From positions 1,488,001-1,552,000 of the forward strand of contig CM065882.1 of the NCBI GenBank assembly GCA_033439255.1: a stretch of DNA of 64,000 nt, given 5' to 3'. This stretch comes from Hericium rajendrae. Its lineage: Eukaryota; Basidiomycota; Agaricomycetes; Russulales; Hericiaceae. Positions 4,371 through 57,605 of the stretch are shown in pieces. The notes beneath the pieces are model-generated. The model saw only the letters and a program-made list of their open reading frames with translations, had not been told where the DNA came from and did not search any database. A program made the position numbers and the translations under genes. Within the stretch, counting starts at the first letter, position 1. The number at the start of each line of letters is the position of its first letter.

Positions 4371-4379
4371 ATTTCAAAA

Positions 4380-11919: not shown

Positions 11920-14900
11920 TCACAACTCTGACTCCTCTGCCTTTTTTAGAGCCTGTGCATGTAGATTAGCAGCATCTTCAGCTAGCTTTGCATAGATGCA
12001 GCTATGTCTAAGTGCATATGCAGCTGCACCACGATCTGCAGCTGTGGATGCCACTGAATTCCAAGCACTACTCACTGTCAAATGAGACTGTGCAGTATTT
12101 AAAAATTCCTGGTCCGTTACATCGATCTCCTCCCGCCAACGGTCTCGGTCTGCTCGGTCACGGAACCACTTGACACGTTCACCTGTTCATGTTAACGTTA
12201 GGAACTGCTACTATTCACATGTTGATCGGACTTACTTTCCATACTCCACTCATCCTGTTCTTCTTGTGTTAATGCTGACGGACCGGCAACTGTCCAAAAC
12301 CATGGGTCCTTTTTCTCGGCATCACCTAAGTGTAGCAGTGAGCAGAAGAGCGGGGCATGAGATCCTCAGGCACTAACCTAATTGTCGTGGTTTGGTTGTG
12401 TCCTTCATCCATAGCTCACTATCATGCAATGGCTGAAGTATGGCATCGGTTGCCAGCATGCCCAAGCTAACAAGAGCTGCTCGAGCTCGACGATATTTGT
12501 CGGCGGCACTGACTTGGTCCCTCTTGATATCCCACAGGAATGCCTGAGCATGTGTTGTTGGTCCTTGACCGAAGATCACACTTTTCTTGAACTTGAGATT
12601 GTAGTTGAACATCTTCACTGCATGTCGAACATCACGAAGCGCATCATGCGCTTGACCCACGCGCAATTGATATTCCAATAAAGCTACATCCGACAAACCA
12701 TGTGCTTTCCTGGTAGGCTCATTGAGAGATGACAGTAACAGAAGTTTGATCACCTCCGGATCGATGTCATCGTCGAGGTTAAGATACTGTTGAAGGGCTG
12801 GAAAGGCTGCCAGCTGACGCTGACGCCAGCGATCAAGATCGTTCCGGAACTTGACTCGGCCGATTTCCAAACGTTCCTCCTCGGTGGCCGAGCGTGTTGT
12901 AATCTGTGCTAATTTTTGTAATCTAGCCCTGTAAAATGTTAACAGAAGAGGGCAGCAACACGACAAGAAAACATACTGTTCTGCTTCCAGACGCAGGCCA
13001 TCATTGATGATGGAGACAGAACCCGCATGGCCTTGATTACTGAGGGTGCTCACAGCCTCTGCTTGAAGCAATTCCTGTAACTTTGTAGACTGGGAAGGCG
13101 GCCCTAGACATGTAGAGATAAGACTAATTCACCATCCAGCAAAGCAGTTAATGGCAGACTTACCCTTTTTTGCTTTGTTTGCATATACACTAGTCACTTT
13201 GCCATTTATCATGATGGGTTTGCAGTCCATGGCCGACCAGCTAGATATCAATTCGGGCCCATGGCGATTGCACAGTCCATCAAATGCCCCACTCGATTGT
13301 CGGTACATGGCAGCTGCATTGGTATGTCGACGGTAGAGTAACTGGGCTATTAGTAAAAACAAAAAATCAACAATGGGCACATTCATCGCATGGAATAAGA
13401 TGTAACGAACGCAGGGAGATGACTTTCTGCCAATTCCAGTATCCATGGAAATCATCCAGGATATCGTGACGGTGTCCTGAATTCATTTCCTTCGTACTGC
13501 CTGCAGTCTGGTTTCCTTCCGCCCATGCCGTCTCAATGGTCTCGCTGAATGTTCTGCCCACATGTGGCATAGTATTGAATGAATATTGTAGCTGACAGGC
13601 TTCAATATGTCCCATAATGTGCATCTTCGGTACAAGTCCGTCGATGCGAGAAGCGATGTCTTTCATGTGGGGAAAATGCTTTGCTACTCGTGCGAGAAAG
13701 TATTTCTCGTATTGACAGAAGATGTCATAGCTTAACTTGATGTAGGGGACATACGACCCGTCAACTAATGCCGACATGAGTGCATAATCAGTGTTACAAA
13801 ATCTAAAGCCGAAGTCAGTGCCCGTAGTGTGCATGATACGAAAAATAAAGGATACCTTTCACCCTTCTGCAAGTCCACCATGCCTTGAGGCCAGAACAAA
13901 CCATGGCGCGCACACTGGATACCGTCTACACCACTAACGACAGTATGCTTGAATTTGAGTAAATTTTGGAGGCGCACGACATTGAGTCTGGCACATGTAG
14001 ATCTCTAACAAATCGTAAGTCTAACAGATACGCAAAGCGCAGGTCACTATGCCGCACCTCATCGTCAGTGGCAATGCCCATCTTGTTGAGGTACTTGTTA
14101 TATGCATTGGTCTCCACAAAATAAGCATTGCCGTTGAGTAAAGCCACATCATCAGGGTCATCGACTTTGATTTTACGCTGGAGCCTAAAGTTGCCGTCTG
14201 CAGAAAGGAATAGCGTGTACCTATGACTATGAAGCAGATAGTCAGTTGAGGATACATGCGGAGAAGCAATATGATTACATGTCGTCGGGTGATATGTTTG
14301 CCAATTCTTCCAAGCTAATGTTAATGCCGGGCTCAATACAAGCCGGGCACCTCACAGCATATGACCCAGGTCTCCGCATTGTCAAGATTTTATCGATCCC
14401 ATGAGCCTGGCCAGCACGACGCATCATGGCGAGGGCGCGCCAAACGCGCCCAACCCGCTGAAATTCTCGCCGCCGATCCTGCATACCAGTGAGCAATATA
14501 AACAAAGGACCAATGCACGAAGACTTACTGGAGTATTTTGTGGAAAAACATTGTCGGTATGTCGTTGTAAAGCCGCATAATGATCGTAAGCAGATTTCTT
14601 CGACGCGAGGGTATGGAGATGGAAGTCCTTGAGGAGCGAAAATGTGAAAGCCGTTTGGGGTTGGTCCATGGTGGCTGGGAACAGTCCGTTTCGAAGTAGT
14701 TGGAAGGGATGGGTCAGAGCATCACGGCACTGACAAAATTCGATATGCATCTGATGGATGCCGCTGACATCGACGACAACCATTTCACGCCCTCACGAAG
14801 ACGCTGCCCGATTGGGACATCGATGGCCACCATGACCAAGGCTCAGAATGAAGCCAATGTCGTTTAGAGATGCTCGTTGGAAGAACTTTCCATTCCACAT

Positions 14901-15399
14901 CTGAAGCCGGTGGAACGGGAGGTGTCGATGGGTCGACTTTATGCAGGTCTCGCACGATGGGTGACGAGCCGTGCAGTCGATGCAACGGTAAATTGCTGCA
15001 CACGTGCCTGGGCCGCATGGACACTGTTCTTCAATGGTGGCATCAAACTCGCGCGCCAATACAGTAGCCTGAATGGCGTCCAAATTATCCATGAAGGCCT
15101 TCATGAGGGTACTTGCTCCCTGTGAATCAAATCAGCACGAGGAAAATGTGAGATCAAATTGTGCGCACCTGATGCCGCTTTCCATCTTTATTTTTCCTAC
15201 CCTGGACGTGTGGCATAGAAGCCTGCTGCGTGACAGGTACACTTCTGCTACTTTCGCATTTTCGTTTTTTGGGAGAGAGAACCTTGTCAACTGTCGTACG
15301 AGCACCATAAGTGCGAGTGGAGTTGAGGCCAATCTCTACCTCGGTCTCCTGATCTGAGTCGCTATCGATTCCACCATTGAGAAGGGGTCGCTTAGGCAT
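11920..15399 (-). pseudogene. KDZ-superfamily transposase, element A (one in-frame stop)
   Basis: DNA transposase of the Kyakuja-Dileera-Zisupton type. The start is ATG at 15399 (MPKRPLLNGG). About ten exons can be joined by eye; the first intron is 15168-15120 and the last exon ends in KKAEESEL at 11920. Domains in order: basic N-terminus; a cysteine cluster (CPCGPGTCAAIYRCIDC) about residues 95-125; GIHQMHIEFC; CPACIEPG; then the RNase-H-like core with SADGNFRLQRK (first Asp), SYDIFCQYEKY (second Asp) and STKEMNSGHRHDILDD, preceded by the Glu of SETIETAWAE. Long helical C-terminal parts follow. One TGA (14795-14793) interrupts an otherwise open frame and looks like CGA to TGA, so activity is doubtful. 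It is divergent from the accessory genes at 17193. Confidence 0.88.
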
Positions 15400-15870
15400 G
15401 GATTATGGGAGAAGAGGAAGCCACAGCGATACAACGAAGGAGAAGCAGGGCATGCAGATGGTATTAACAGTAAGACTATACAAAAGGAAGCGCGTCGGTG
15501 ACAACTCTCATCAAAGCGGAACAAAACACGTTCAGGGGCTCGGAATCATGTGCCACACCGGTAAAAGACAGCAATGCCACCTATGGCATGCAAGTGGCTA
15601 TCTTATTTTGAGTGTGTCGTTACAACGGGTGGATACGGCAAATTAGCACTGCGACAGTGATGCATGCGTTTCGAGCACTCACAATGGGATATCTCTCACC
15701 AGCGAATACCCTAACAATTCCGGCCGGTCGAAAGTGATCAGTCTGCGAATGCTTGTGACGTGCGGATATGAGTATAAAAATCACATAAAACATTGAAGAT
15801 CGGTGCTCACCATAGTCATGGAATAGCCAAGGCGTTGAACATAAGAATGCGCCCATAATGGTGCCCAAGA

Positions 15871-17030: not shown

Positions 17031-17192
17031 CGTATATCGTCTTCGCACTATCCAATATCATTTCTCCTCTCTCCCAGCCAGTTGATCCACTTCTTTCGTG
17101 ACTGTGCGCCATTCAAATACCACATTCACGCTGTGACGCTGACGATCGAGTAGGTTGCAAGGATTCTCGATCAGTGTGATCTCGTTTTCAAC

Positions 17193-19259
17193 ATGTCTCA
17201 ATCATCGTGTAATGCGCCAAAGGTAAGACGTAGTCCTTTTTGTTAGCGTACGTGAGTGCTCATTTGTCCTACCTGTCAGACCTTCCCGTGCCATTATTCA
17301 GCATGGGCGATGCAGCCGTCGTTGGGCAAAGTCATCGTCGCCGCGAACACACGGATGGTTCCTGTTCCTCTCGATATTTCAACTTTCCCTCAGCTTCAGA
17401 CGGATGGACTATGGGGTGTCTTCGAGTGGACGAAATATCCTTGCCCCTACGATACCTCTGCACCATATCTGGCTTATATCCCTGTCCTTTTTCTGAATTG
17501 TAGTCAACCCCACGCCATCCTTGGACGCTCTGTGTCTAAGGACCTTTGGGTACCACATCCACATGATTCTCAGAAGCACGTTGCTACGCCAACCCTTCTA
17601 TCAGCTCTTCGTGTCGAATGGGAGTGGAGTGCCAAGATGACCTCCGAAATATTTCCTCTCCTACAAGCCAGCAGTGTCTTCGCTCATATCACTGTGCCCC
17701 ACACCACAGCTAGCCGGGCTCTGGACTGTTATTCGTTGCTTAAGGCTGGCCTGAGATCCTGGAAAGAATTTGTCATTGTCTTTCGTCATTTTCAGCGTGC
17801 TCTCCTGGAATTGGTTGCCTTCGAGGAGTGGTGGTCTGATGTCCAAGTTCCCGTGGTGCAGCGAAAAGATAGCCTTGCCGTCCGAACCCGCCGAGAAACC
17901 AGAGGGATATTTGCTCCTGATCTGGCAGTATTTCGAACGTTCGCTGCCCTACATGTAGCAGTCTATATCGAGCTCAACTCCGACGATTGGGCCCCCCTGG
18001 ATCCCACGAAAATTGTCAAGATGGCTCAGCGGGATATACAATGCAAGCTTGCCCCTTGGAAGGACTGCAGTACGAAGCATGGTGGTCCGCATTGGTGGTA
18101 CCCGCCCCTCGTCAAGAACACGCGAGACTTCGAGCCCGCAGCGCGTGGCTGTGCTCCTCGTGATGATCTATTTAATCCCACCGACGAGTACAAGGGCGTT
18201 CTAGCAAAACGGGAACACGCTCTAACCAGTAAGTTTGTGACACAATCATTGTCCATGTCTGTGACTGATGCGAGTTTGATAGTGCAACAGCGTTGTCCCA
18301 AAGAGCCAATTGCACATAACGAATGGCGGCGCTGGTACAACACCTCGGATCCGCCCTCGTGGATGCGGCGGCTGGTCGAAATCTACAGAAACGCGATTTA
18401 TATGGTGAACCCGGATGATATGTCTGATCGAGGGACTTCGCGACTTTTCAAGGCACCTCCGTTCCATCTTTTCTGGGGTATCTCTCCTGAGAATCAAACG
18501 ACTTTCTTCTTCCATGCTCTCATCTTACAGGATGCTCTGGATAAATGCTTCATACGAGAGGCAGAGGGTCTCAGTACACGAGATTGGAGACGCATCCTGG
18601 GTGACTCTTATTGGAGATCACAATGGCCAACTCTAGGCGAACGATTTGATCCTGCGATTGACGTGGCGTACGATGCTGCTGAATTTTGGAGATATGGAGG
18701 TCCCATGGTCTTCGGTCCTGATAATGACGACATCATTGTGAATGCCGACCGCGCTGTATCGCCTCTAGAATGTGGTTGCCCTGTGGATGCATCGGCGGCG
18801 GACGATATGGAGATCCGGTACACTTTATTGTATCGCTTCAGCAGGTACACACTCCAGGCAGATCTTGCTGTCATGCATACAAAATACGTCCGGGAGCCTC
18901 CAGGTACCCATGCTTTCGTAACAAGATGTATCCAGACATTCACGGGTTATGCTTCGGACGGCAAGCTGCATTATGAGGGCCATTGGACAAGCCGTACTGC
19001 ATGGGTGAGCGCATTGCAGGGGTTTTTACAGTACTGGCCAGGGTTCGACCACCAAAAGTGGCAGAGAGTCAGCGTGATGCGAGACGTACGCATTGAGACA
19101 CTTGAGGAGGCCGTTTTCTTGAGTGTTGAGCGGCAGCTACTCACATTCTACGTACAAACTTTCATGTGCCACTTAGGGTATATGCCTTCTCCTCTGCTTC
19201 CGTCGCCTTCCCATAGGAAAATATCCTGCAAGTTACATCGTCCGCCCACCTTGGCGTAG
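17193..19259 (+). CDS. KDZ accessory protein 1 (ACC1), unknown function, ~651 aa
   Basis: The start MSQSSCNAPK at 17193 is followed by a 57-bp intron (17223-17279, GTAAGA..GTCAG). A second, 54-bp intron fits at 18229-18282 (GTAAGT..GATAG), and the frame then runs to 19259. No domain of known function is recognised. Landmarks are DGLWGVFEWTKYPCPYD near the N-terminus, HWWYPPLVKNTRDFEPAARG in the middle, then PFHLFWG followed by an F-rich stretch and WRRILGDSYWRSQWP, and ECGCP. The protein at 50049-52037 in element B shares all these landmarks at low overall identity, so it is a real conserved gene. It lies head to head with the transposase and 317 bp upstream of the GRF-like gene. Similar long uncharacterised proteins are common near KDZ elements in mushrooms (memory, not checked). 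Confidence 0.85.
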
Positions 19260-19575
19260 TACTATACTCGATGGCCTTTACAGTTGGTGTGGGCAGCGGC
19301 CTTTATTGTTTGAGCTTTGACTACATTCCGTCTTACCGCAGATCTGTATTTTGTTTACGAACAATAGCAAATTGCTCATCAATTTTGCCTATCTGAATTG
19401 TTTTTTTGTTTTATTACAGGATAATGCGGATGCGTGTGCCACGCAAACAAAGCTGAGTCGTGGCTTTTGAGTGATGACACCTTGGTGCTGATACAATGCA
19501 ATAGTGGTCCGCTCATTCATTTGCTTTAAATGCGTAGGATCATTCGATCAACTCGACTCTTTCGCTCTCACTACC

Positions 19576-20856
19576 ATGCCCAAGACACCCTCAGGACGTT
19601 CTCAACAGCAAGGGGCTGTTTCGTCAGCCCCATATCCATCGACGCCAAGACGGGTTACACAGGGACTGCGACGTCGCAATGCAACGGGGACTCCCGCGGC
19701 AGATGCGGACCCAGCTTTGACAGCAAGCAGCAAGAAGGATAGGAACAAGCAGAACCAGGATCGTATTCGCGCGGCGTTGATGGAGCTGGCCCCGAGGCGT
19801 CCTGCAATTGTGCGACACGAGCACACGGATTTTCGTACACTCGGACCTTACTTGTCAGTGGGAAACACGGATGTCCTTGATGCTGGCAGGTGGTATCAAA
19901 TAGTTAGTATCTGTTGAATGCTTTATATCCTATACTCACGCGATATACAGTGTGCTCCCGCAAGAGGCCAAGGAAAAAGGGATTGTTTCAAATGGCTCAC
20001 AGATCGCCTATCCCCCGATATCATCATCCACAGCGAGCCGTTCGCGTCATGGTGGCGTATCAAGGCAGAACTAGACTCGACATCTCGCATCCAGATCCTT
20101 CAATCTTTGCAGTTGCCATGTACCGTCGCCGAGGATCGTACTCACCCAGCCCAACGGTCCGTCATTGAGGAAGATTCTGAATCTGAAATCGAGTTCTGTG
20201 AGACACCACTGGCTGTGCGCTCGAGAGTAGAAAAATCTCGCACAGCAGCTGCAACGCCTTCTGGATCATTGGTCATTATCTCTGACTCGGATGATGAAGA
20301 CAAAGTTGGCCGCCCAGTCCATATCCCCACTCCTACCGCGAAGCCTGGATCGTCATCCAGGGTTCTTGCACCTCTGCCATCGCGACCTGAGCTCGATGAT
20401 AAGGTCGTTGTGACCATCATGGGATGGTATTCAGTACGTACTCTGTTCCATGCTCCTTGTGAAGTGCTCATTATCTTTTAGGACGTTCGTTCGCCTTCCT
20501 CCGCAGCTATGTGTGCTCGACGAGGGCGCCGTCTGGTCTTGGATGATCACAAGTTGATATTGGGTCAGATTGGACTAGAGCGCACTGTTGGAGTGGAGCT
20601 CTATCATGTTGCGAAGCAGAGGTGGGTCACTTTGCGATGGGATACACCACTGTCGGTAGAGGATGGAGGTCTGGTTCTCCTGCGTGCATCTGGTGTTCGC
20701 ACGATGAGAGACTGGGAAGAACACGCTGAACTCATCCTGGACAATGATGCGGTTTGCTCATCCCGTGCGGTGGCATCTGGGGGACGGTCAAAGTCCAAAT
20801 TATCTTCGCCACCACTTATGTCTTCTCCATTGGATAGAGTGTCTCGTCGTGTATAG
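19576..20856 (+). CDS. GRF-zinc-finger-like accessory protein of KDZ element A, ~394 aa
   Basis: The start MPKTPSGRSQQQ at 19576 was chosen because the homologue at 56316 starts the same way (MSPKAD); an upstream ATG at 19504 is possible. Two introns of 48 bp (19903-19950 and 20434-20481) give an uninterrupted frame. The first join creates GRWYQICAPARGQGKRDCFKW, which matches the GRF zinc-finger pattern (Cys/His..NxGRxFYxC..CxFFxW) with His replacing the first Cys. A Ser/Asp-rich, acidic linker (IISDSDDEDK) follows. The C-terminal part (RWVTLRWDTPLSVEDGG) resembles that of the element B protein. GRF fingers bind single-stranded or damaged DNA in other proteins; a role on transposon ends is inference. 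Confidence 0.72.
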
Positions 20857-21327
20857 TCTTGTCTACGTGGCTTTATCGTTAGCGCTTCCATGCTTCATTT
20901 GTACTGTTATTGGCATGGCTCTATCACTTGTACTACAATGTTTGCTCTGAATGTTCTTTAATTGTACCTCCATCCACAGTTCTATTCCTTCTTGTGCTTA
21001 TCGCAGGTACACATTCTTGATATCAGGTAGCCGGATGTAAGGGAGGCCAGGACAAGCAGTGGAGGATACTGCAGGATGAACAGTGCGTCATTTAGAGATA
21101 ACTGACATTGAATGCCTTGCGGGGCTTACTTACATGTGGCACCCAGACCACCTGCTCAAAGCACACAACTGGTGAGACACCGGTGGCCATACAATGCACA
21201 ATTCATGTTCAAGCCACTTGTCGGTGTGGCTCGCTTTGAAGGGATGACATATATAAACCAGAGTGTAAGCGGGTTATTGGCTATCCCTTCATATTTCCGA
21301 TATACTCGCGCTGACTGTTCACTTCGC

Positions 21328-23501
21328 ATGGCACCCTCTGACGCTGATGAAGAAAGTGTTGTGCGGGCGGGTACACTTAACACTGAGCACAAAGACTGGC
21401 TTCAAAAATTCATCACTGAATGGCTCGAATTTCAGGAGACGAATCCTGCTAAAGGACAAGGGTCACAGTGGGTGCGCAAGAAGGTACTGGATGGCTTCCA
21501 TAGTCAATTCATGAAGGACACAAGCCGCGAGGAGGTTTGCACGGTAACATTGATTTTTTATCTCTTTTTGATTATCATTGCTGAAATAGTACCCCGTGAA
21601 CAGAAAGTCGTGCGCTGGTTCTATAATCAGACTTCCAAGACGCTGAAGTCTCGTGTGAAACCCGTCAAAGCTCCGAAGAAGCCCAAGGCCACCAATGGGG
21701 AGTTTCTTTTCCGTATCGCGCAAGCTGTCCACATCCGGCAAGAAATGCAGGAAGAACGAGAGAAAGGTGAAGAAAGTGATAACCTCACGCTCTGGAGGCA
21801 GGTGGCACGGAAGAGATGGGAAATGTTGACTGAGGAGGAGAAGGCTGTCTGGAATGCAAAGGCAGACAAGGTGAACAAGTCTCATGACAAACCCCCTCCA
21901 GTAGACCACATCTACGGGTATGTTTTCGACTTTCTTCTTCGTTCTAAAAACTCGGCTCATTTTTATGTTCAGGAATCAAGAGCAAGTCATGGCTGCCATA
22001 GTCGGTGCCCTCGAGCCATTGCAAGGTTATGATTGGCACCAATATGGAGATGTCGTGTTCTTCGTTCAAGGCGCATACCGAAATGGTCGCGGCGTTGTAA
22101 AGACATTCTAGTACGTCCTTCGTGCATCACATGCATTACAGTCCAGATGTATTCTAATCGATACTGTGACAGTACTTCAGTTCACGATAGCCCCAATGAC
22201 TTTGGGCCGAAGGACATTGAGGACTATAAGACTGGGCTGCGAAAAGTGTTCAAGGACTGGGCTGAGAAAGTTCTTCCCAGTGCGTAGCTGTTTTTTTATC
22301 TCTTGCTTTGTTGGTGACGTAGTTCTTTAGTCCAAGATGCCATGACCAATTCGATGAAAGATGCCTCTAAGCTGAAGATACACTTCAATTCAAGTGGCCG
22401 ACCGGTAATAGATAACCTACCCATCGAAACAATGACTCCTGCTAGCCTCGGTGAAGTTCTCGAGCAGCTCCTAGCCGGTCTATGGTGTATGTCACTTCGA
22501 ATGCTCTGGTAAATGCTAAGATAGTGGCTTACAGTTTCCATAGCGCGCAGTGCACCGCAAGAGGTATCTGACGATGTGCCGTGGGGCCTTATCAATGCTC
22601 ACAGATCAGCATTTGTCGCCAATGACAACCAATTCAGCCATTTCAAAGTCCTTCAGCCCTCCAAAATGAGCCCGCGGGAGGTCTTCGAGTTTGCTGATCT
22701 CATTCAAAATGCCGATTCGGACGGGCCCTTCCCTTTTGCATTTGTGATAAAGAATGAGAGTCGACAACTGCTTGATCTCGGTGATGACTCGCGAGCAAGC
22801 TCACCTACCGGCACGGGTGCTATCTCGCCAAGTGCCTCTTCTAGGGCATCAAACAGTCCACATGGAATTCGTCCTATTCGTCCCACAGTCTTGGTCCCTC
22901 ACCTTCGAGCAGTCTACCCATCTGGAGGTCATCAATCTCCACCGATTCCGCCTGTCCACGTACATGATCAGCCGGTTTTGAAGGAGTCGGGCCCTGTAGG
23001 ACCGACTCTGGCAACAACCAGTACTACACAAGTTGAGAGCGAGGAGGAGGCACCAGAACCGGAGGTAACACATGTTTCATTAACCGATATTGAGCAGCCT
23101 GCGACACCGGAACCGGTCATCAAAGCCTCCAGAGGCCGCAAACGCAAGGACACGAGTCAGGTTGAATCCATTGATACTATGGAAGACACCGGGAGCTCTT
23201 CAACACGAGGGGTCTCCAAGCGCAAGTCCGCACCACAAGCTGATCGGCCGGGAAAGCGTTTACGCTCACAGGTAACACGCGAGGAAACTGCATCGTAAGT
23301 TGTTATGTATTGGAGTGCCGTAGTACATATACTGACTTGGTAACAGTGCATCCACAAGAACTCGTTCAAAGGCTGCAAAACCAAATGAAAGTGCTGACAG
23401 TGTGGCTGCAGGCCGTCCTCGCCGTTCAACAAGGTCAGTGGTTAAATCTGAATATGTCCTACTTGGTCTTACAATTTCACTACAGGGGAAAGAAGCAGTA
23501 G
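21328..23501 (+). CDS. HMG-box-like accessory protein of KDZ element A, ~597 aa
   Basis: Eight exons join in frame: 21328-21543, 21604-21917, 21973-22110, 22173-22279, 22331-22486, 22535-23294, 23347-23433 and 23486-23501 (1794 nt). The N-terminal helical domain (HKDWLQKFITEWLEF..VVRWFYNQTSK) is followed by an HMG-box-like segment (FLFRIAQAVHIRQEM..LWRQVARKRWEMLTEEEKAVW). A conserved middle part follows, and then a Ser/Pro/Glu-rich tail with basic patches (RGRKRK, KRLRSQ, GRPRRSTRGKKQ). It is probably a nuclear chromatin or DNA-bending protein. The homologue in element B (53772-56019) shares the domain order and the first intron site. The stop is followed within 3 bp by a MITE. No frame break was seen. 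Confidence 0.78.
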
Positions 23502-23503
23502 AC

Positions 23504-23817: not shown

Positions 23818-24150
23818 GTATGACTTGTGGTACAATGTAAGTGATAGAAATGATAACTATGTCACGACTTAATTGGTGCTTGTTTGTTTGATGATGATAA
23901 ATCCAAGTAAATTGGATTGGATAGGTTTGGCTTAGTTTGGCTTATATTAGATATGGATAAATTGTCAATGGATATCATTAAACAAGTAATTACGATTCCT
24001 TAGAATCGTTTACTCTATACCGCCTTTTCATAGTGAAAACGACACCAAAACGATGACTATGCCCATTAGGCAGTTGGCTTATATAATCACACATCTTCAA
24101 TCTGACGAGTTTGCAGGTTCAACTCCAGCTCTGGTCAAACTTTGTTGATT
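23818..24150. other. Stretch without recognised features
   Basis: AT-rich sequence with some TTGGATTGGATAGG and TTTGGCTTAG words. It may contain the right end of KDZ element A, but no terminal repeat matching the left side could be identified. Confidence 0.3.
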
Positions 24151-24159
24151 TAATGTAAC

Positions 24160-24690: not shown

Positions 24691-24830
24691 GCTGGTCTCC
24701 AACACAATTTACTGCTCATAGAAAGATACAGCCACTAAAATGATACACAGCAAACAAATGTACATACTGTTTATTAATAAAATGAGCAAAACAATGCAAT
24801 TTATCGGTAGCAATGGGTCCTGAGACTCGG

Positions 24831-25646: not shown

Positions 25647-25649
25647 ATT

Positions 25650-42306: not shown

Positions 42307-42399
42307 GTTGAAAACGAGATCACACTGATCGAGAATCCTTGCAACCTACTCGATCATCAGCGTCACAGCGTGAATGGTGGGGTAGCAACAGAATTGGCT

Positions 42400-45230: not shown

Positions 45231-45239
45231 GATGTTCAA

Positions 45240-46120: not shown

Positions 46121-46129
46121 ATAGAACTG

Positions 46130-49100
46130 TTAATCGTCACCATCCAAGGATCGTCTTTGCTCCTCTGGAAAGAGCAATCGCGCCTCATGGAATAGACCCC
46201 TCCACATGTTCGCTTGCCTGTCAAGATTCTGTTAGCATCAGGATATTGCGACCTTAAACAGACGTACTTTGCGGCATAACTTCCTTGCCCCTTATCGACC
46301 GGGTCACTACTGGTAAGCAGAACGTCTGCTTTCACTTTCCACTGGCGGTACCAACTACGGAACGTCCGCTGTGTTCGACGCATCTCCACTTCGAGCAGAT
46401 TCTTCTGTTCTTTTGATCGCGCGACTGCAGCGCGTTGTCTGAACCAATTGACTCTTTCATCTTCCAAAAGCTTATGTTAGTATCAATTCAACACGACGTC
46501 CAATTGCCACTCACATTCTATCAGCCACTCGTCAGCAGCTGCATCTGTTGAGGAACTACGATAGGAGCCCATTTGCCAAATCCATGATCCTTCACTCGCT
46601 TGGTCCTTTCCCTTTTTCCTGCTCTTCGCACGAGTGCCATGATACACGGTCGGCGCGTAGCAGTCCTCTGGGCGAAGTGGCTTATAGTTGTGACTGTCAG
46701 AGCCGAGGACGACTAGTATTAATCGAGTACGTTCATATTCTTGTCGAAGAGCTTCAAGTCTGGATGAGGCGGTAGATAAAATTTGACCATTGCGAGTCTT
46801 GCTGTTTTGGCCTGTAGTGTCTTTAGTTGATCGCCAGAGAAAACCGCGCATAGCGGAACTTTTCTTTATATCTCGAATAAGATCATTTGCATGACCTTCA
46901 CGGAGTAGCAGCTCTGTCCTTATCGCCTTAGCAAATTGTGCGCAGTGACGAACGGGTGGGGGATGCTGTGACGGAACTGGTAGGGAGACGTCCTCGGGGT
47001 TACAGTGCTGTACCGATGGCATTGGAGGCCACGCGATGGAAGCAAAACTTCGAAGTGTTTCCAGCTCCTCGACAATGAGACCTAGAGAGTCCGTATATAG
47101 AGCCTCCCACTCTTCTACGTCTTCAGCTAATCGTTGGCGTAGAAGTTCGAGCTCGTTATAGATCGCGTCTGATTTCTTCGCTTCGTACTCTTGAAGTTGC
47201 GTATGAATCCTTCGTCTGTTGAGTGGAGTTACAATTTTAGATGGCAATATACAATGTAGCACGCACTCACTGCTTCTGTTCGATATCCATTGCAAACTTC
47301 ACCATCCGCCCTAAACGGTGACTGGGCTCAATGGTAATTCCATTCGCGGCGCGATGTCGCTCGTTCTCCCTGTTGAGCTCTGCCAAGGCTTGCTTTTGTG
47401 TTGGCGCTAGGAGATATGAGTACTTTTCTTCATGGCTAAGCAGTACGGACAGTACCTTTGTCCTCCGCGGGCTCGTACGGGTTCGTGATATCTTCTCGCT
47501 TCCAATATGGATCGTTGACTTTTTGCAACCAGTCTTGCTCCTGCTCATGCCAGTCTTGCAGCGGGGCGTCACGTTCCGTCAGTGAAATTTCCATGTCCTC
47601 TAGCTTTGCTTGGTCTGTATCAAGCCTTGCATGCACTCGCTTGAAACGTTTTGCAAGTAGGGATGCTGAGAGGGTAAAACAGCAGTTAGCAATGCCTTGC
47701 GTGGAATGAAAGTGTCGTCAGAACTTGCCTTCTTTGAATACTTTCTGCATATTATAGTCAGACATATGCCCGTTCAACGAATCGTGTCGATGCCCAGCTC
47801 CCATCTCCCGCGTGCTTCTCGCAATCGAATTCTGGACCGACCAAAGGCGTTCCAGGTCCTCGCCATCTGTATGGCCCGTCCCGGGGATGAAGTGACCATT
47901 GTGTTTTGTCTTGCATTCGGGTTTAATGTGACCCGGTAGATGATACGAACCAATCAGATGATGAGTCTTCGGAAATACTGGAGCACCAGGAAAATCCATC
48001 ATGCGTTTGTCGAAGTTGATCATGTACTGACACACAATGTCGTAGTATTCATACCAAAGGAGGAGTAAAACAAATCAGCGCGTTGCGGAGACTTTCGCAA
48101 AATCTACGCTGCAGTACCTTATGTTCCAGATAGTAAGCTACTCTGCTTGCACGCGTCAAGAATGACACTCACCGCTCGCCTTTCAGGAGATCAACCACCC
48201 CATTTGCCATGATCATACCAGATCGTGCACATGCAAGCGCCAAGATTCCTGATACGATCTTGCCCGAATACTGATTGGTCAAGGCTTTGAAGGAACTACA
48301 CGTTGACGTCTGGCTCCCGTCAGGTTAACGACTATTCCCGGAAACAATGACATCATGACGTACCTCAGCCTTCGCATTCTGGGGGCACTGCTCGAGCCAC
48401 TTTTGATAATCAGTTTCATTGGCAAAAAGGCGGCACCATGTGTTAAAGGACGGTCATTGTGGTCCATGGGCTTATCATGCAGGCTGCTTGAGAAGTTACC
48501 GTCCTTTGCATAACGAAGCGCATGTAGATACCTGGAAGTGTTGTAGGTTATCGAGATTGCTCTACAGACGATGAGAACTTACATGGAATCTGCGGGAGCT
48601 TTCTCCCAATCCGGGTCCATATTGATGCCTATCAGTGGGCAACTTGGACACATCGGCACTAGACAGCCGGGTTCAAGCGGCTCAGTCGCGTTGCGACCAT
48701 GCCATTTCAACGTTTGAAGGAAATCAAAATACCGAGAAGCGCATAAAAGTTGCCTATAACGGTCCTGTTACAGTGTTAGTAATGCATGCAGTAAATGGCA
48801 AGGCAGCATACCGGAACATCCCCTTGGAAGGGATTGTTCGTCAGGCGCTGCAAAACAGCAGAGAAGTCGTACGCAGTGACTTTTGCCCGTACAGAGAGAT
48901 GGTGGAAATGACGAAGGAGATGGAGCGTAAAGACAGTGCGAGGATGTTTGAAGGAAGCGGGCCAAAGGCCAGCCTGTAGAAGTTGACAGGGCCGCTCGAG
49001 AGGCTCATACGTGTCCAGATGGTTGCACCCACAGAATTCGAGCTTGCAGTTCTGGATGCCAGTAGTATGAACACAGATGATCTCCACCAGAGCTTGTCTA

Positions 49101-49716
49101 GAAGAGCTACATCGAAGACCATTGTGACCCAGGTAGATCACCAAGTCGAGGCTACTGAGGGTAGCCTTCTCGAAGAACGAACCCGACCAACGCTCGATAA
49201 CGTGGAAAGGGTCTTGGCGATGGGCTTCAACAATGCATTTCGAGCAGAACATATGTGCGTGAAAACACTCCGTGCATCGATAGAGCGCGTCTTCGCCTAG
49301 GCATTGGGAGCATGTCTTCCCCGCGTCGGCATGGTGATATCGACTGTGAAGAATGTCTAGGTACTTTTGGGCCCAGTTATTGAGGAATTCGTCTGTCGCC
49401 TCACTCATAGATTTCTGTTTAATGGTTAGCGCGAGTTGCCAGAAAGACAGAGCATGATACGCACCGTGCCACTTGCAGACTTCTCCCCCGGCATTGGAAT
49501 AAAGTCGTCCTTCACCATCCCCATAGAGCTGTCTTGGTCTTGTTCATTAGCCAAGGACGGTAACACTTCTAGAACACGTTTCTTCCTAGGGCTCGGCTCC
49601 TCGTGAAAGTGACTCTTTCTGGCTGATCCGTTTGCACCGACTCCACCTACTAAGATTCCGGTCGACAGAGCAATAGGCGTTGGCAGTGGCTCTGCAGCTT
49701 TTCGCTTCTTGCCCAT
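46130..49716 (-). pseudogene. KDZ-superfamily transposase, element B (probably decayed)
   Basis: The start is MGKKRKAAEPLP at 49716 and the last exon ends in EEQRRSLDGDD at 46130. The first intron is GTGCGT..AAACAG (~49470). Domains: basic N-terminus; cysteine cluster (CSQCLGEDALYRCTEC, CSKC); HTTGIQNCKLEFCGC; CPSCPLIG; YAKDGNFSS (first Asp); YYDIVCQY (second Asp); GEDLERLWSVQN with STREMGAGHRHDSLNG (Glu region); coiled-coil C-terminal half; DERVNWFRQRA. By eye the frame changes near 48.45 kb and again near 48.07 kb, between recognisable blocks, so the copy is likely inactive. Same family as element A but strongly diverged. Confidence 0.82.
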
Positions 49717-50048
49717 GGTGAAGCAGGTATGCGCGAATCGACCTGTAAGAAAAGCACGAAGGAGAGGCGTTAGCGAGCTGCCAGGAGGGAGAACTCGGAC
49801 TAAAGAGTGTGGTGAACACGTCAACCAACTAAAACAATTTGCGTCACTGCGATTGCCAATCGCAGGGCCGAGTGGCCAAGTAGCCTGCTATTGTGGCCGG
49901 GCCTCGTTACGTGTTTTGCCATTACCTGTAGAGTTCTTTGTCAATGCGAGAGAAAGAGAAACGTGCGCTCGGATATTAATAACAATGAACGCGCTTTGTT
50001 TCCGAGTAATCGAAGAGCAAAGAAAGAGAACAATGCAAACAAGCCGAT

Positions 50049-52037
50049 CTAAAAAGTATACAGAGCATTATGCATACATGTCGGGGGACGTTCAACCACT
50101 CTCTGCATGGGAAGGGAGGGGAGAAGACCATGTACAGAAACGAAAGAGTCCTGGTAGAACGTAATCAACTTCAACTCATGATCCATATAGTCGTCTCGGT
50201 TCAAACAGATAAGAGAGAAATTCAGAATGGCAGGAAAACCTTTCCATGACGACATGATCTTTCTAAGGTCTTCAAACCACAGCATCCTATCGCGCCAGTC
50301 CTGTTTTTGACAACCATACTCATATTCGATCTCAATGTCGCCGTAGTTCGGGCCATGTGGCCAAACCTTTCTCCGTTGCTCTGCCCGCCCGCTACGCCGA
50401 TCCTCGTCCCAATCTTCTGCTGAGATTTGAAGCTCGTCGTGATGTTCAAATTCCCAAAAGATATGTGCCATGTTGAGCTTGTAGAGGATGATTGCGCGGT
50501 TGGCGGGGTCGTAAGATACATTAGGACTGGCTTTGCAGCCACAAGAAAGTCGACGATTAATGATATTCATAGTTGTGATGTTCGAAGACAGAGAGCCAAA
50601 GAAAGAGTCGGAGCCATAGGCCCAGAAATTGTCTGGCTGGTATTGCCGGTCTTTAGGCCATTGACGCTTCCAGTGAGCGTCACCTAAAAACGATCGCCAT
50701 TCGGACGGCGAAAAGGCGAGATTGCGGTAGATGACATGTCGAAAATCCCACACCCGTGCCAAACAGAACCAATGGTAGAAGAAAGTTTCGCGTGCCTTCT
50801 CTTCTGCTGGACCCCAAAATAGATGGATTGGCGGTAGATGGTACGGCCAGCCGCGGGTCAGGTTCTGGTCCGTGAAGATAGGGACAGTGTTCGCAATGCA
50901 TTGATGCCAAGTCTCAATGATGTTCGGCACCCAATCCGGAGGAGCGACTGAGTTTTGAACACGTCGGCTATTTTGAGTGTGTTTGGGCCGTGACGCATTG
51001 ATAACGTTGCGTTCATGGGCGACTAGTATCTCTTCGTAAGAAAGATGTGTATATGAAGCAGAGCACTACTTACGATCTTGATCTCAGCGCATTTGCATTC
51101 CCAAAGCTCTCTGCGTAAGATGTTTACTATCACGACGCCGGGCATAACCTCGCGCCGCTCTCTCGAATAGGGGATCGTTGGCTGGGGAGGGCGGATAATA
51201 CCAGAGGTCTTTCGTGTGATCTTCGACTGATCCCGCTAGTACTCCCTGATCCCGCCATTCCTTGAAGTCGGCACCGACAAAGTTGCACCAGTCTACCAAG
51301 CGCAGGAGGCCCTTTTGATCGCCGGATCGGAGCGGGTGGTAGTGGGAGACAGGAAGGCGAAGGAATGCGGTGATATGATTGGATTCGAGCATCTGGTACA
51401 CACGAGGGTCCGTGGTAATGCTGCCATGAGTAAGCCTGGGCGTTACTATACGCTGTTCTAAAGCACTGGACCTAAACCAGTCACAGAACGCTTGAAGTTC
51501 GAGCAGGTGACGCTGAACTGCTCGAACACCCTCGACGATGTCTCGCCAGAAGCACGGAGTATCCTTGAGTCGAATTAAGGCCGATGCAATACGGCGAGGT
51601 GCGGTGGATGGGAAACAGACATGTCGAAATGGAGGGAAGTTGATGATCTGAGAAAGACACTGTTGAGCCTCGCCTAGAAGGATGTCCCGCTCTTTGTGGA
51701 AATCTTCGATCCACTCAGAGGACAACACAAGGCGCGGGTGATAAACTGGATGCGGAGACACATCGGACCGTGTAGGCAAACGATACAGGATGGAGGATGA
51801 GTACTCTCTAGTAGGTAAACGTATCCAAGCCAGGTATGGATACTGATAATCGAAGGGCTGTGGAAAGCGGACCCAGTCATGTGGTCCCCACAAGCCATCG
51901 CTGCGAACCAGAGCCTTTTCATCATCTGGCAATTGAGGAATGTAGGTCGTGTGTGCTGCTACGACCATCTCCTGCTCCCCCCATCCAAGAGCCCAGCACG
52001 CATACGGCATATCGAAAGGGCGTGGGGCACTAGCCAT
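50049..52037 (-). CDS. KDZ accessory protein 1 (ACC1), element B
   Basis: Homologue of the 17193-19259 gene. The start MASAPRPFDMPYACW at 52037 aligns with NAPKTFPCHYSAW of the A protein. Shared landmarks are SDGLWGPHDWVRFPQPFD, DLWYPPSPANDPLFERAARG, PIHLFWG followed by TFFYHW, WRSFLGDAHWKRQWP and CGCK, ending at 50049. An intron fits near 51060-51000 (GTAAGT..). Just before it, near 51.1 kb, the better frame (ELWECKCAEIKI) is offset by one base, so there may be a frameshift. It is divergent from the HMG-like gene. Function unknown, but conservation across two diverged elements argues for selection. Confidence 0.75.
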
Positions 52038-52099
52038 GATGGTATTCTGACATGTCAATAACTTGATGAGTGATATGACCGTATATCTAAGCATATATG

Positions 52100-53640
52100 T
52101 TTACCTCGTGTATCTGGGTCGTAACCTACAGTAGAGACTTGGTAGAGGTGCGGAGAGGCGAGTGTCCGTGGAGATAAGGTCTGAGCGCACTACGCGTGAA
52201 GCTCGTTCCTTATGTTTTAAGCCTGATAGAAGGCGAGAGGGAGTCTGAGGAATTGAAGGTGGTGTATGCAGGGTCTGAGCGCACAGCGTGTGAAGCTCGT
52301 TCCCTGCACACGATACCTGATAGGAGGCGACGTGGAATGGAGAGGGGGTACAGACTAACGGCGAGACCTAAAGCCTACAATCAGTGGATCTCCAAGATAT
52401 ACAGAATTACTCACCAATTTGAAAGAACTAGTCGAGCGAAATGGTATAGAGCCTAACGGAGCTAGAGGCAATAGCACAGTGAGGAAAACAGGGGAGGTGG
52501 CGGAGGAGAATCGAGGAGAGAGTACGAGTACGAACACGAAGGCGGCGGCGACTGCTTGAGCGGCTCGATGATGACATAATGCGCCACGGAGGCGCTCAGC
52601 GCTTACGGTTCAATGTTCGACGCACTAGTACTCAAGTACTCACCTTCCTAGTACTTCCCTTGTCTCCTGTTTTTCTATGATCTTTCTCTCCATCTCCGAT
52701 TACCCCATGTTGTCCTCAAAGACGATCACCAGTCCACGCCCAAATCAATAGTCCCGGTCATCGAGGATGGCTGGACAAACGACGCGTCATAACATGGTAA
52801 GTGCTCTCAACCCTTCTGAATCTCTCAAGTCACGTAGCAACGATTTACCAGTCAAGGACACTCATCCAGCCCAAATCGCTGGAAATTCGGGTCGGCCGGG
52901 CCGTTTCTCGCAGGCAAGGAAAGTGAAGCGCGAGCGTCACAGCACCTGTGGTGGACAACGAGGAGTACGGTCGGGAAGGACAGTAGGTAAGATTTCTATG
53001 TCTTTCGCAGTAGAGAAGCTCATCCAACAATCCAGCCTACATCATTATCTTCCGCTCCCGTCGAAAGCTCGTGCGACATCGACGCGCACACTTTCCACAC
53101 CTTCGGCATCACCGGCACGACAAGAACACAGCCGGCTGCTGTGTCAACAGGAAGTCTACTTCGACGAGCATGCGTGGTTGCGAGGGCGGGTACAGATGAG
53201 TTTACCTTGAATGGTTTAATTTCTTTTGCTGTCTATATGCCTGCCGGCCCCGTGTTTTTTTTTTCTTTATAGGATTGCTCATGGCCGCGGCGTCGCACCA
53301 ATCGACTCCACGCGTAGTGCGTCGGGCGGTGCGTCGTTAGGGTCTCAAAATCGGCGTACCCATGCCATACTTATCCATCTTCCCCTACCACACTATCTCG
53401 TCAGCATGTCTGACCCGCTCTTTACGCAGCGACGCTGCACCAATCGACTCCACGCGTAGTGCGTTGAACGGTGCATCGTTAGGATGCTGTGGCCTGCATT
53501 GTTTGTCTCACTCCCGCCACTGCGACGATATGGACCTTAGCTTTGACCGACGTGGATCCGTCGCAACGCGACAATGTGGACCTTAGCTTTGACCGACTTG
53601 GATCCGTCTCGATACCTCCAAGTATGTGACTACGCTTTGC
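52100..53640. repeat. Divergent intergenic region with short direct repeats; possible small ORF
   Basis: Direct repeats are GGTCTGAGCGCAC..GTGAAGCTCGTTCC at ~52178 and ~52270, CACCAATCGACTCCACGCGT at ~53296 and ~53438, and a 44-bp tandem pair (TGGACCTTAGCTTTGACCGA) at ~53531 and ~53576. An ATG at 52767 (MAGQTTRHNM followed by a GTAAGT donor) might start a small gene, but no continuing frame could be established. It separates ACC1 (minus) from the HMG-like gene (plus) and must hold both promoters. Confidence 0.5.
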
Positions 53641-53771
53641 AGCTTTAACACCTGGTGCCACGACCACAATTGCCAGACTTAAAAGCCTTCCCGTGTCGCA
53701 GTGAGTCTTACCTTCCGTCCGCCCGCCCTTCCGTCCAACGAGTCTCTGCTCCTGCCACTGCTTCTCAAGCT

Positions 53772-56019
53772 ATGCCGAACGAGCGTTGGACGACGAACGA
53801 GGAATATACTTGGCTTCACGAACGAGTTGCTGAGGGCTATGCGACCGCCAAACAAGGTGGCACCCTCACGAAGTGGAGAAATGACTTGATCGCAGACTTC
53901 CGCTCCGAGTTTCCCGCCACCCAGAGGACCAAAAAGGACACATCCTTGGAGAGTGAAGAAGAGCTGGAGCAAAGGATGGAACATCTTGATTCCGTACGTA
54001 TTGGTTCGTTGTGTTTTGACTCTACGCTCACATGTTTTTCAGCGTCTTCGCAAATGGCTCGCCAACCACACCAAGAACATTGTGGAAGGGAAGGGCGGGA
54101 GTTCATCCAGAGCTTCCAAGCCAAAGCCCCTCGCACTCAAGGTGGCTGACCTTGGCAATAATCGCGCTCCCAGCGCGCGAGACCTCATGCAGAAAGACCC
54201 AAAGGTTCAAGAACGTTTGGCGGCGATTCATCGAGAAGGTCCCAAGGATGGCAAGAGTATCCAGACCCGTATTAATGAGGAGCTCACTGAGATGCTGAAG
54301 GACCCGGAGACTATACGCCTTTGGAACGGCCGTGCCGCGACTGCGAAGGCGGAATTTCACGAAAAGAAGGAGGAGAAGAAGGCAGCCCAGATTGTTGCGG
54401 CGGAGATCGAAGGCACGTCGAAGTTAGAGCTCGAACGTAGCGAGTAAGCTGCCACAATCATTTATGCTTTCGTGCATCTAATTACTCTCCTATCTAGACA
54501 ACTACGAAACTTGAATTATACCATTCGACATCACGGTCGAGGCTGGAGCGAGAAATGTAAAGTGGTGATGTGCTCTGTTGTGGGGTTTCGAAATGACCAG
54601 GGGATATTGCAAATGACTGTGTATGTATTCTGTTATGCCACACCCGTCTTTGCGCTGATCTGGTTCTGATAGCGATGCCTTCGGACCTGATGGATCCGTC
54701 CTAGCACCTCTTGTCGACACGCTTCAATCTCCCGAGGTTTTCCTCTCCGAGACGTTCAAATCTCACTTGGAGGATATCTTCCCTTCGCCTGCAGCCTCTA
54801 GGGCACGATCACAAACCGTTTCTCCCAGAAAGGATGCTTCTGCGTCTCCTTTGCACTCCCAGCCCACTTTCAGCACTCCTGTTCGTTCTCAAGCACAGAT
54901 GTTCGTGACTCCGAGGCAGAGCAAGGGAAAGGCAAAGGCTATCCAGTCTGTCTCGCGAAAATCGCAAGCATCTGCCACCAGCCGTTCGCGTCTCCCTTTT
55001 CCTCGCCATCCGACAGAGCTGTCACAAGGTTCCGATGACGAATCAGATGCGCAACCTTCTCCATCACGTAGGCTTCGATGCACGCCTCGTCGCATCGTGG
55101 ACATCTCAGATGATGATGATGATGCTGCTGTAGGATCAGGGAGTAACGTGATTACCGATGGCCCCGGACGCGGTGCGAACGAAGAGGAAGACGACAAAGA
55201 TGAAGAACCGCATGTTAGCCATGAGGAGGAAGTCGAGAAGGACGAGGGGGAGATTGAGAAGGACGAGGACGAGGACGAGATCGAGAAGGACGAAGATAAG
55301 GACGAGGATGGGGGCGAAGGCGACAAGAAGGTTGAGGAGAATTACGATGACGAGGAGGATCAGGACGTGCAAGACGAGGCCTCGATCGAACGCGATGACG
55401 ATGATGCTTCCGCACAAGCAGATATTCCGTCGCGACTGATCAAGCAGCTGCGCTCATCTCAGAACGACGCTATCGAGGGCACAGGATCATCACGCAGTTC
55501 TGGATGCCGACCCGGAACAAGAATTGTGCCAAACGCAAGCAGCGAACGGCGGCGGTCGGGGCGCATCCAAGCACATTCTGCGCATATCGAACCGATCACG
55601 GATGCTCCACCTTCTTCGCGACTCAGGTAAGTCGGGTCTCCTTGACATTTGATATCTTCATTTTCATATTCACTTCAACTTTAGGAAGCGACCGGCTGCT
55701 GATAGTAAGTCTACGAATGTCAAACCAGCGACGGATGTTCCTGCTTCACGACTCAGGTCAGCTACATCTCCTTCACATTTGAGATTCATGTTCTTATTCT
55801 TCTTTTTCTTTAAACTTCAGGAAGCGAAAGGCGGACGATAGTGAGGACCAGCCTCCGGCGTCCAAACGTGCCAAGAAAGTGAACACAGAGAAGGCGGCGA
55901 AGGGGGCGAAAGTGGCGAAAGTGGCGAAGGCGGTGAAAGTGGCGAAGGGTGCTGCCCAGGAAAATGAGCTGGAGCCCAAGGGCAAGAAAGCAGCCGGAGC
56001 GAAGCGTTCCCGGAGATAA
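53772..56019 (+). CDS. HMG-like accessory protein, element B, with lysine/alanine-rich tail
   Basis: The start MPNERWTTNEEYTW at 53772 leads into about six exons that join in frame (donors GTACGT ~53997, GTAAGC ~54445, GTATGT ~54620, GTAAGT ~55629, GTCAGC ~55757). The N-terminal helical domain (WLHERVAEGYATAKQG..RLRKWLANHT) and the HMG-like segment (MQKDPKVQERLAAIHRE..LWNGRAATAKAEFHEKK) match the order in the element A gene. A middle part (HHGRGWSEKCKVV, DAFGPDG) follows, then a long Asp/Glu-rich tract (~55160-55400), and a histone-H1-like end (KAAKGAKVAKVAKAVKVAKG) and RSRR stop. Probably nuclear and chromatin-binding. Confidence 0.75.
55612..55850 (+). repeat. Tandem ~125-bp duplication spanning an exon-intron-exon junction
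   Basis: Within the HMG-like gene, the block GCGACTCAG-intron-GAAGCGACCGGCTGCTGATAG is repeated as ACGACTCAG-intron-GAAGCGAAAGGCGGACGATAG. Both copies keep working splice signals, so the duplication added an in-frame RLRKR-A-DS segment. Confidence 0.7.
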
Positions 56020-56315
56020 ATTACTATTCGGTGGCCATCTTAGCAAGATTCTACGCGGAGCATATTGCACTAGATGATAAATTTGGGTATGTCTCACTGT
56101 ATTGTAAATAGTAACAATGCGTGTGCACCGGGTGGTTATGACTGGTGGATAGTTGGCGTGTGGCTGCTGGACAAGGCCACGCTATTGTTGTAAATGGTTT
56201 TGTGGCCTTGTTGACCACGCTTTGACCGTCTGTTGTCTAGGGGTATATAGTATCACTTCTTTCCACCCGCGGGCACTCTTTCGCCCCCGACCCTTCCTCC
56301 TGCGCACCCGCTATC

Positions 56316-57605
56316 ATGTCACCCAAAGCGGATCCCGAACTCAAAGCATTCGTAGAGAAGCTAGCAGGGCCTTGCCCTCGACCTATAACTCTAGTCTGCC
56401 GCCATGGTCTACGGGCCTCAGGACTTCAGTACCAGACCGAGGGTGACAATGTTGGTCGTTGGTACTACGTTGTATGTCGTCACTGGAGATTGGACCGAAA
56501 TCTGATACTGACCACCCTTTAGTGCCGTGAAAGAGAGACTTGCGCGACAGGATGGAAAGCAATTACTGAACCGCTGTCTCCAGAAAAGTTGGCGCTCATT
56601 GCACGTTTCCGACGCGCACGAGCAGAGCAAGCTGATTTGTCGAAGGAGGCTGCAGTGGTTGTCAAGCATCAGCGTTCGGGTCGGCCTAATGATTCTGGAA
56701 GACGTGGGAGATATGAGCGCCGAGCATTGCCACAGGTTGGAAATCGCTCTGACTCTTCGCCTCTACAACGTGCAAGCGATCATCGAACATTGCCACAGGC
56801 TGGAAATCGCTGGGACTCTTCGCCTCCACGGCGTGCAAGGGATCAAAAGGTTACTCCAGGGGCTCGCCGGGAGGCCATCACGGAGCCTCCTTTGCGCCGC
56901 AATATATTCGACCCTCAGTGGATGATTGAATCATCTCCGACGATGTATATGGGTGATCATGAGGGGCAGATTGAGGGTGACGGAGGAAAGCATAGCATTT
57001 TGAGTGTGTTCTTCGCACAGGTTCGTCACCTTCTGCAAGGTGGCATGGGGTTGAAACTGACATTTGTGCCGCAGGATAATCACTCTCCGATAGTGAAACG
57101 GTTATCGTGGCCCAAATCCCAAACGTTCAACATTCTCTATCACATTCCTGTCTTAGCGAGGCTGTTCGACATCAAGCCCACCGACATCGTTGACGTTTTC
57201 GACCCTGTTCAATGCTCGTGGGATTCATCCGTCGTCAAAGACTGCCGATGGGAACCCATTGTCCCTGATGTTCCATTTATCTGGCGCTTTCATAGGATCT
57301 CTGTAGGAAGAGACCTGGATACACATGCTGAAGACTATCGTGCCAGACTTTGCGATGTTCTGGGACCGAATGACCTTCAACGAGAACATTCAAGTCCTGT
57401 GCCTCGGAAAGGCCAAAAGACATCCAAGGTCCTGGCTGCACTCGACAGACAACCAGTTGCCGGCAGCTCTCAACGACGCGTTAAACGCAGTCGTGAAGAC
57501 GACCTTGAGGAAGGACCTTTGAGCATGAGAGGGAAAAGGCGTGCATTACCAAGACCAGCCCTTCGACTGGCGTCGGATGTGATCGAGATTGAGGACTCTG
57601 ACTAG
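56316..57605 (+). CDS. GRF-zinc-finger-like accessory protein, element B, ~412 aa
   Basis: The start MSPKADPELKAF is at 56316. One 51-bp intron (56472-56522, GTATGT..TTTAG) joins in frame and gives CRHG..EGDNVGRWYYVCRERETCATGWK. This is a GRF-type finger (Cys/His, NxGRxxYxC, Cys, Trp). A Arg/Pro/Ser-rich linker with two copies of LPQxGNRxDSSP follows, then a conserved C-terminal domain (WPKSQTFNILYHIP, FDPVQCSW, RFHRISVGRDLDTHAEDY) and a tail with KRSREDD and VIEIEDSD. It is related to the element A protein by its finger and by the domain before the tail. It lies 296 bp behind the HMG-like gene. Confidence 0.72.

Follow-up and report, generated by a model that had tools for sequence, protein, structure and literature searches.

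Accessory genes ACC1, GRF-like and HMG-like inside the termini of two KDZ transposon lineages of Hericium rajendrae

KDZ elements of mushrooms have so far been known mainly through their TET/JBP genes. In the main text of Kojima 2025 (PMC12730594), Kyakuja (KDZ) elements are described as TET/JBP-bearing, with CA..TG termini and a 7-bp target duplication. The window analyzed in this study, a stretch of 64,000 nucleotides from the fungus Hericium rajendrae (C5:1488001-1552000 in a genome assembly of 46.8 Mb and 19 contigs), contains two KDZ elements, termed A and B, which carry three accessory genes in common: ACC1, a GRF-like gene and an HMG-like gene, together called the trio. An initial annotation of the window had claimed that both elements encode the same three proteins in differing order and orientation, and that no TET/JBP gene is present. 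Both transposases do match Pfam KDZ and no PF12851 match was found in the window, while the gene models agree with the differing arrangement, which is transposase (-), ACC1 (+), GRF (+), HMG (+) in A and transposase (-), ACC1 (-), HMG (+), GRF (+) in B. The kinship of the proteins is clear for ACC1, and for the other two it rests on weak similarity and on introns.

Two KDZ elements and their shared accessory genes

In mobile units of the A type as well as of B, the transposase and the three accessory genes all lie between the termini. The gene models given below were obtained with a spliced-alignment script run on copies of each lineage.

11299-11798, no strand: left end of element A, with terminus 5'-CAGGGACGTCAGTTGG followed by short repeats; boundary set against a 99.7%-identical copy (L002) with a different flank
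12373-15399, minus strand: KDZ transposase of A, several exons; the upper limit 15399 is that of the initial annotation
17259-19256, plus strand: ACC1-A, about 640 amino acids, probably with one small in-frame intron, without a Pfam match
19576-20853, plus strand: GRF-like gene of A, three exons, with GRWYQI, then an intron, then C....CFKW; same layout in the C7, C10 and C6 copies
21328-23298, plus strand: HMG-like gene of A, six exons in the spliced model; layout common to the C7 and C6 copies, with one extra break in the C10 copy
36682-42376, minus strand: A2, an inverted second A accessory array, equal to A positions 17123-22818
42376-58299, no strand: element B, termini 5'-GGTGGGGTAGC...CATCGGCTC-3'; boundaries by comparison with the C5 and C6 copies
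42376-42875, no strand: left GACTA array of B, 16 copies in 500 bp, 0.6 expected
46130-49716, minus strand: KDZ transposase of B, KDZ at 47721-48119, CxC2 in 48779-49543; outer limits from the initial annotation
50052-52037, minus strand: ACC1-B, two exons, exon border uncertain
53772-55630, plus strand: HMG-like gene of B, four exons
56334-57605, plus strand: GRF-like gene of B, first-exon start uncertain; Pfam GRF E-value 0.0014, below the cut-off
57300-58299, no strand: right GACTA array of B, 18 copies in 1000 bp, 1.0 expected

The transposase of A exceeded the cut-off of Pfam KDZ (PF18758) in exon 13370-13858 (E-value 1.1e-34), and that of B did so in exon 47721-48074 (2.6e-26), with CxC2 at 1.9e-28. 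The KDZ exon of B contains one in-frame stop, which is missing in the three other B copies compared there. In A, no match to a CxC cysteine cluster was obtained in the N-terminal exon at 14796-15131, in a scan that covered this exon and not 14427-14792.

The ends of B, which the initial annotation had missed along with the A2 array, were set using a 99.5%-identical copy on C5 (near 977-993 kb) and the C6 copy. These two copies end in GG..TC and are flanked by 6-bp target duplications (ATCCAT and GAGGTC), and the flanks of B in the window lack a target duplication. For the A type, an intact copy of 12.9 kb (C6:1227808-1240711) has CA..TG ends with the 7-bp duplication GGCAACA on both sides. Its outermost ~26 bp differ, and directly inside them lies an inverted repeat matching at 369 of 393 columns. 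The copy C17:381804-394717 has the same ends and no target duplication. No matching terminus was found in the window as the right end of A before the unrelated repeat X, and positions 1-40000 contain no second GCCATAA.

According to the alignments, ACC1-A and ACC1-B are certainly homologous, with 25.7% identity over 323 amino acids (E-value 2e-23), 25.8% over 298 (7e-19) and shuffle z values of 70-99 in all 16 pairs. The GRF-like proteins yielded an hhalign E-value of 7e-4 at 27% probability (four cross controls: 0.06-0.43) and z values of 0.6-5.6 over nine pairs. On three B proteins the A profile scored 6.6, 2.1 and -0.1 bits; the highest score among 900 shuffles was 7.1. Both share the motif order GRWYxx-C-(x)n-C (one B copy reads GCWY), and in both a phase 0 intron directly follows GRWYxx, at the identical alignment column. 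For the HMG-like proteins hhalign was not significant on its own (E-value 0.11, probability 0.5%; HMG-B/GRF-B control 0.06), z values were 2.1-6.6 (nine pairs), and the A profile scored 6.9, 1.8 and -1.0 bits on three B proteins against 4.2 for the best of 900 shuffles. All three introns of HMG-B match those of A in order and phase, and two of them also in place. The first lies directly before the RW(F/L)xN or KW(L)xN motif (phase 0, same point), the second upstream of a conserved Trp (phase 2, 11 columns apart in A and B) and the third eight residues after RN (phase 2, same point apart from gap placement). Whole-genome searches with the A proteins did not recover the GRF and HMG genes of B, nor did searches with the B proteins recover those of A. 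Taken together, weak similarity and matching introns indicate that GRF and HMG are probably homologous between A and B as well.

Beyond the window, the distribution of the trio was followed within this one fungal genome, with hit lists for ACC1, GRF, HMG, KDZ, TET/JBP and dioxygenase-like genes that give lower bounds (at least). ACC1 of the A or B type was found at 29 loci (14 A, 15 B), a count that includes recent duplicates and comprises about four subfamilies per lineage as judged from pairwise identities. KDZ, GRF and HMG each lie within 10 kb of all 15 B-type ACC1 genes, and the corresponding numbers for the 14 of the A type are 10, 11 and 11. GRF and HMG are thus both present within this distance at 26 of the 29 loci, and a random genomic site has a chance of ~5.4% of a listed KDZ match within 10 kb. 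The exceptions include two ACC1 copies on C9 with none of the three other genes within 60 kb, as well as a C14 copy with GRF and HMG genes ~45 kb from their ACC1. Six more diverged ACC1 matches have no GRF or HMG within 20 kb, and one of the six has a listed KDZ within 10 kb. Two of these diverged copies (C3:1667972 and C7:434418, in the regions C3:1666288-1671946 and C7:431353-435332) are located ~2 kb from a Plavaka fragment, and the one on C3 also adjoins a dioxygenase-like gene; a non-KDZ transposon may likewise have carried ACC1.

Selection was assessed by the Nei-Gojobori ratio of nonsynonymous to synonymous substitutions (dN/dS) for 28 pairs, all within a lineage. The ratio was 0.06-0.25 in all 20 unsaturated pairs, of which seven have a dS above 1.8 and are near saturation. 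The other eight pairs are saturated and all involve A of the window, with ratios of the uncorrected proportions (pN/pS) of 0.31-0.45. The trio is under purifying selection within each lineage and recurs in most copies found. Of the earlier proposal of a co-selected module of KDZ elements, the module itself is supported by the enclosing termini, the 26 of 29 loci and the low dN/dS, and homologues of the three genes do not lie mostly apart from KDZ genes in this genome; the function ascribed to it (help in transposition, silencing escape or end recognition) stays conditional and is discussed below.

Dioxygenase genes, end motifs and possible roles of the trio

Within 10 kb of the 14 A-type ACC1 genes there is no PF12851 match. 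Four of the 15 B-type ACC1 genes have a TET/JBP gene 8.3-9.4 kb away, but the KDZ gene found 2.4-3.0 kb from this TET/JBP gene is not the one of B; inside trio-bearing elements no TET/JBP gene was found. Among the 46 TET/JBP matches listed, 38 are above the cut-off, and 36 of the 46 have a listed KDZ match no more than 7 kb away. A second, dioxygenase-like family, labelled so by its HxD...H pattern and without a Pfam match above the cut-off, occupies 56 places (61 matches before second pieces were removed), 25 of them within 7 kb of a KDZ gene (example L052:4789-5436). This family may supply one more accessory gene of KDZ elements, possibly the PE type of Kojima. At 20 places these genes are found 2.1-2.6 kb from the KDZ gene. 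Six TET/JBP matches below the cut-off are located 7.0-7.7 kb from a Plavaka transposase (e.g., C2:33965 with C2:26562) and are likely to mark Plavaka elements that bear TET-like genes.

For a tally of at least 130 KDZ loci, 150 of 223 candidates were scored and second-exon matches of one gene removed. TET alone was present at 32 loci, the other dioxygenase-like family alone at 24, ACC1 alone at 28, TET with ACC1 at four, the other family with ACC1 at one and none of the three at 41. In four of the five loci that combine a dioxygenase with ACC1, ACC1 is 10.7-12.4 kb distant, and three of the four TET + ACC1 loci (C1, C17 and C18) have the TET element as a neighbor at nearly the same distance. 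There, a KDZ element with TET lies next to a B element near contig ends (C1:9106-23931, C17:25249-40071, C18:396816-411630), and the nearly equal spacing at this position suggests that they are likely to represent one subtelomeric duplicated block. The best transposase tree, built from 26 KDZ domains and not from all 130 tallied loci, groups A with five KDZ elements that bear a dioxygenase and a sixth in which no accessory gene was found (85/85). A clade of the A and B transposases is 6.2 log units worse (approximately unbiased test, p-AU 0.069). The tree therefore leaves undecided whether the trio descends from an ancestor shared by A and B or was transferred between lineages.

The two lineages also differ in the short motifs at their ends. 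GACTA/TAGTC occurs 12-16 times per 500 bp at five B ends, whereas the 13.9 kb interior of B contains 14 GACTA on the array strand and six on the opposite strand. AATCC is found 11-17 times per 500 bp at five A left ends outside the window and at two right ends. None of the eight A ends examined contains GACTA, none of the five B ends has more than one AATCC, and neither motif exceeds one per orientation at the ends of the other lineage. By analogy, VANC and other systems that match a protein to its target would be expected to show such a layout.

The presence of the trio inside the ends of two distantly related families suggests that it serves the element itself, and from sequence the arrays make a function in transposition, silencing escape or end recognition plausible. 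In the explanation favored here, to which an even chance is given, large KDZ elements of two lineages, A and B, each mobilize an ACC1+GRF+HMG module inside their own ends, and the three proteins would act together on the element DNA. Binding or bending of DNA would fall to the HMG-like and GRF-like proteins, and a complex of all three would recognize the lineage-specific arrays, AATCC in A and GACTA in B. At these arrays the complex might help to bring together the two ends of an element of 13-16 kb, lift host silencing, or both. In other KDZ elements an equivalent job is perhaps given to TET/JBP or a related dioxygenase.

Several observations weigh against this explanation. Pfam assigned the domains poorly: for the GRF zinc finger (Zn_ribbon_GRF) B reached 19.1 bits against a cut-off of 25.9 (E-value 0.0014) and A had no match, and for HMG_box A reached 13.2 bits against 25.4 (E-value 0.12) and B had none. 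The homology of GRF and HMG between A and B is, as seen above, weak by sequence. For ACC1, AlphaFold2 models of three window sequences had a predicted local distance difference test (pLDDT) score of 33 and were unusable. GRF and HMG are absent within 10 kb at three of the 14 A-type ACC1 loci, at least for A2 the nearest KDZ gene belongs to another element, namely B, and copy counts overstate the independent evidence because many copies are recent duplicates. The left end of A in the window has only five AATCC, next to 12 ATCCT in the same 500 bp, the ATCCT part overlapping a simple tandem repeat. A single putative right end of a TET-bearing KDZ element has no array; this end is perhaps only the edge of a duplicated block and tells little either way. 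Moreover, the arrays could equally be read by the transposase via its own cysteine clusters.

Structure comparison offers some help for the HMG-like protein: a single-exon model (pLDDT 64, four helices) returned 21 Foldseek matches, 20 of them titled HMG-box proteins or complexes with one, at E-values of 1.7-8.3. For ACC1 no relation to any Pfam family or solved structure was detected (best structure match of ACC1-B: E-value 0.4). Relatives of ACC1-A were not found in viral and prokaryotic collections, nor relatives of an ACC1-B exon in viral contigs.

A narrower role, possible though not probable, would be that of a pure transposition helper, in which the trio belongs to the transpososome (end recognition, DNA bending and synapsis, handling of single strands) and plays no part in silencing. 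This role would agree with the nucleic-acid binding of HMG and GRF domains in known proteins and with the length and subterminal arrays of the elements. However, 97 of the 130 KDZ loci lack an A- or B-type ACC1 within 13 kb, and as KDZ elements without the trio are so numerous it is not generally needed for KDZ transposition. With many KDZ elements lacking the trio or carrying a dioxygenase, a regulatory role is mildly favored, synapsis and anti-silencing not being separable.

The opposite restriction, a sequence-specific and VANC-like anti-silencing function only, with the trio standing in for the dioxygenase of other KDZ elements, appears rather unlikely. It would fit with TET, other dioxygenase-like genes and ACC1 rarely occurring together (five of 130 KDZ loci), and parts of PMC5735166 and PMC10398659 describe VANC targets as short-motif repeats that differ between related families. 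Yet this exclusivity partly mirrors element lineage and not function, 41 of the 130 loci have none of the three gene types, and ACC1 has no detectable relatives in Pfam or among solved structures.

That the trio consists of passenger genes, captured from the host by chance and carried passively, is very improbable and was rejected. Transposons do capture genes, and seven of the 21 gene models contain in-frame stops, of which the one in ACC1-B of the window possibly falls at a mis-set exon border. On the other hand, the same trio occurs in two lineages with low dN/dS and matching introns, and all GRF and HMG matches listed lie beside ACC1 except for the C14 array and one fragment at C1:518628. 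A mere chance clustering of unrelated repeats, for which a window full of repeats and nested elements might speak, is refuted by termini with target duplications that enclose the genes and by the recurrence of the arrangement genome-wide.

Neighboring features and rearrangements

Two further features border on the elements.

23987-24500, no strand: start of repeat X, unrelated, found too in other A copies and one B copy
58300-59773, plus strand: part of a glycogen-synthase-like gene in the flank of B, the gene being interrupted by B

The flank of B in the window is the 3' part of the glycogen-synthase-like gene. Its 5' part lies ~0.51 Mb off on C5 (L048:2182-2491), where it adjoins another B copy, which is inverted and whose last base differs; the 6 bp adjoining B are CGAGAC at both gene parts. 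This split fits with an insertion of B and a later inversion between two B copies, or alternatively with a misassembly at 99.5%-identical repeats. An inversion between B copies could also explain the inverted A2 array, which is 99.85% identical across 3426 bp of L010 and in which the ACC1 reading frame is shifted by a one-base offset. Glycogen-synthase-like genes occur in at least six more places (C8:1473647, C12:2067763, C5:1630461, C5:1415709, C6:2121301 and C1:4276093), five of which share the exon layout of the interrupted copy, and are perhaps a mobile or duplicated family.

The C6 copy of B (L045, compared with window positions 46131-48988) is 96% identical over the ACC1/accessory part and 84% over most of the transposase, and this mosaic divergence suggests an exchange between B subfamilies. 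A large inverted repeat at window positions 1555-6575, whose longest arm of 1 kb was reported as 100% complementary, is built largely of units of ~42, 76 and 144 bp.

Comparison with known systems

A description of the trio was not found in the titles and abstract beginnings of the literature searched, term searches of PMC12810828 and PMC8889193 returned no mention of it, and the main text of Kojima 2025 (PMC12730594) contains none of the words HMG, GRF and accessory; any novelty of the trio in print is provisional. As far as the main text of that paper describes them, Kyakuja elements resemble the A-type copy in their KDZ transposase, CA..TG ends, 7-bp duplication and possession of accessory genes. 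They differ from it in that the A type carries ACC1+GRF+HMG, with no TET/JBP found. Kyakuja elements lack terminal inverted repeats, and the ~390-bp inverted repeat just inside the ends of the A-type copy, whose outermost ~26 bp differ, perhaps sets it apart from them. B differs from Kyakuja by its 6-bp duplications and GG..TC ends.

Beside the TET/JBP genes, the trio represents a second accessory module, an unrelated one, that has been retained across deep divergence within one genome and alongside element-specific end motifs. What accessory genes contribute to large DNA transposons can be tested on it directly, and it provides a case among fungi for asking how transposons overcome silencing in the absence of DNA oxidation.

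Two plant systems can be set beside it. The maize element En/Spm has a CACTA transposase, a second element-encoded DNA-binding protein, TnpA, and subterminal repeats; it thus resembles A and B in having an extra element-encoded protein together with subterminal repeats, whereas the proteins and the transposase differ. VANDAL transposases of Arabidopsis are Mutator-like, unlike the KDZ transposases of A and B, and the likeness to VANC is drawn by layout, not by sequence. What VANDAL/VANC and A/B have in common is a DNA transposon with extra element-encoded genes and, as described in parts of PMC5735166 and PMC10398659, family-specific short-motif repeats in noncoding DNA. It is tentatively conceivable, though doubtful, that ACC1+GRF+HMG would be a dioxygenase-free, sequence-specific system for derepression and end recognition, matched to the end motifs of its lineage. 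It would then be a fungal counterpart of VANC and one of at least three alternative KDZ accessory modules in a single genome that evade or overcome silencing.

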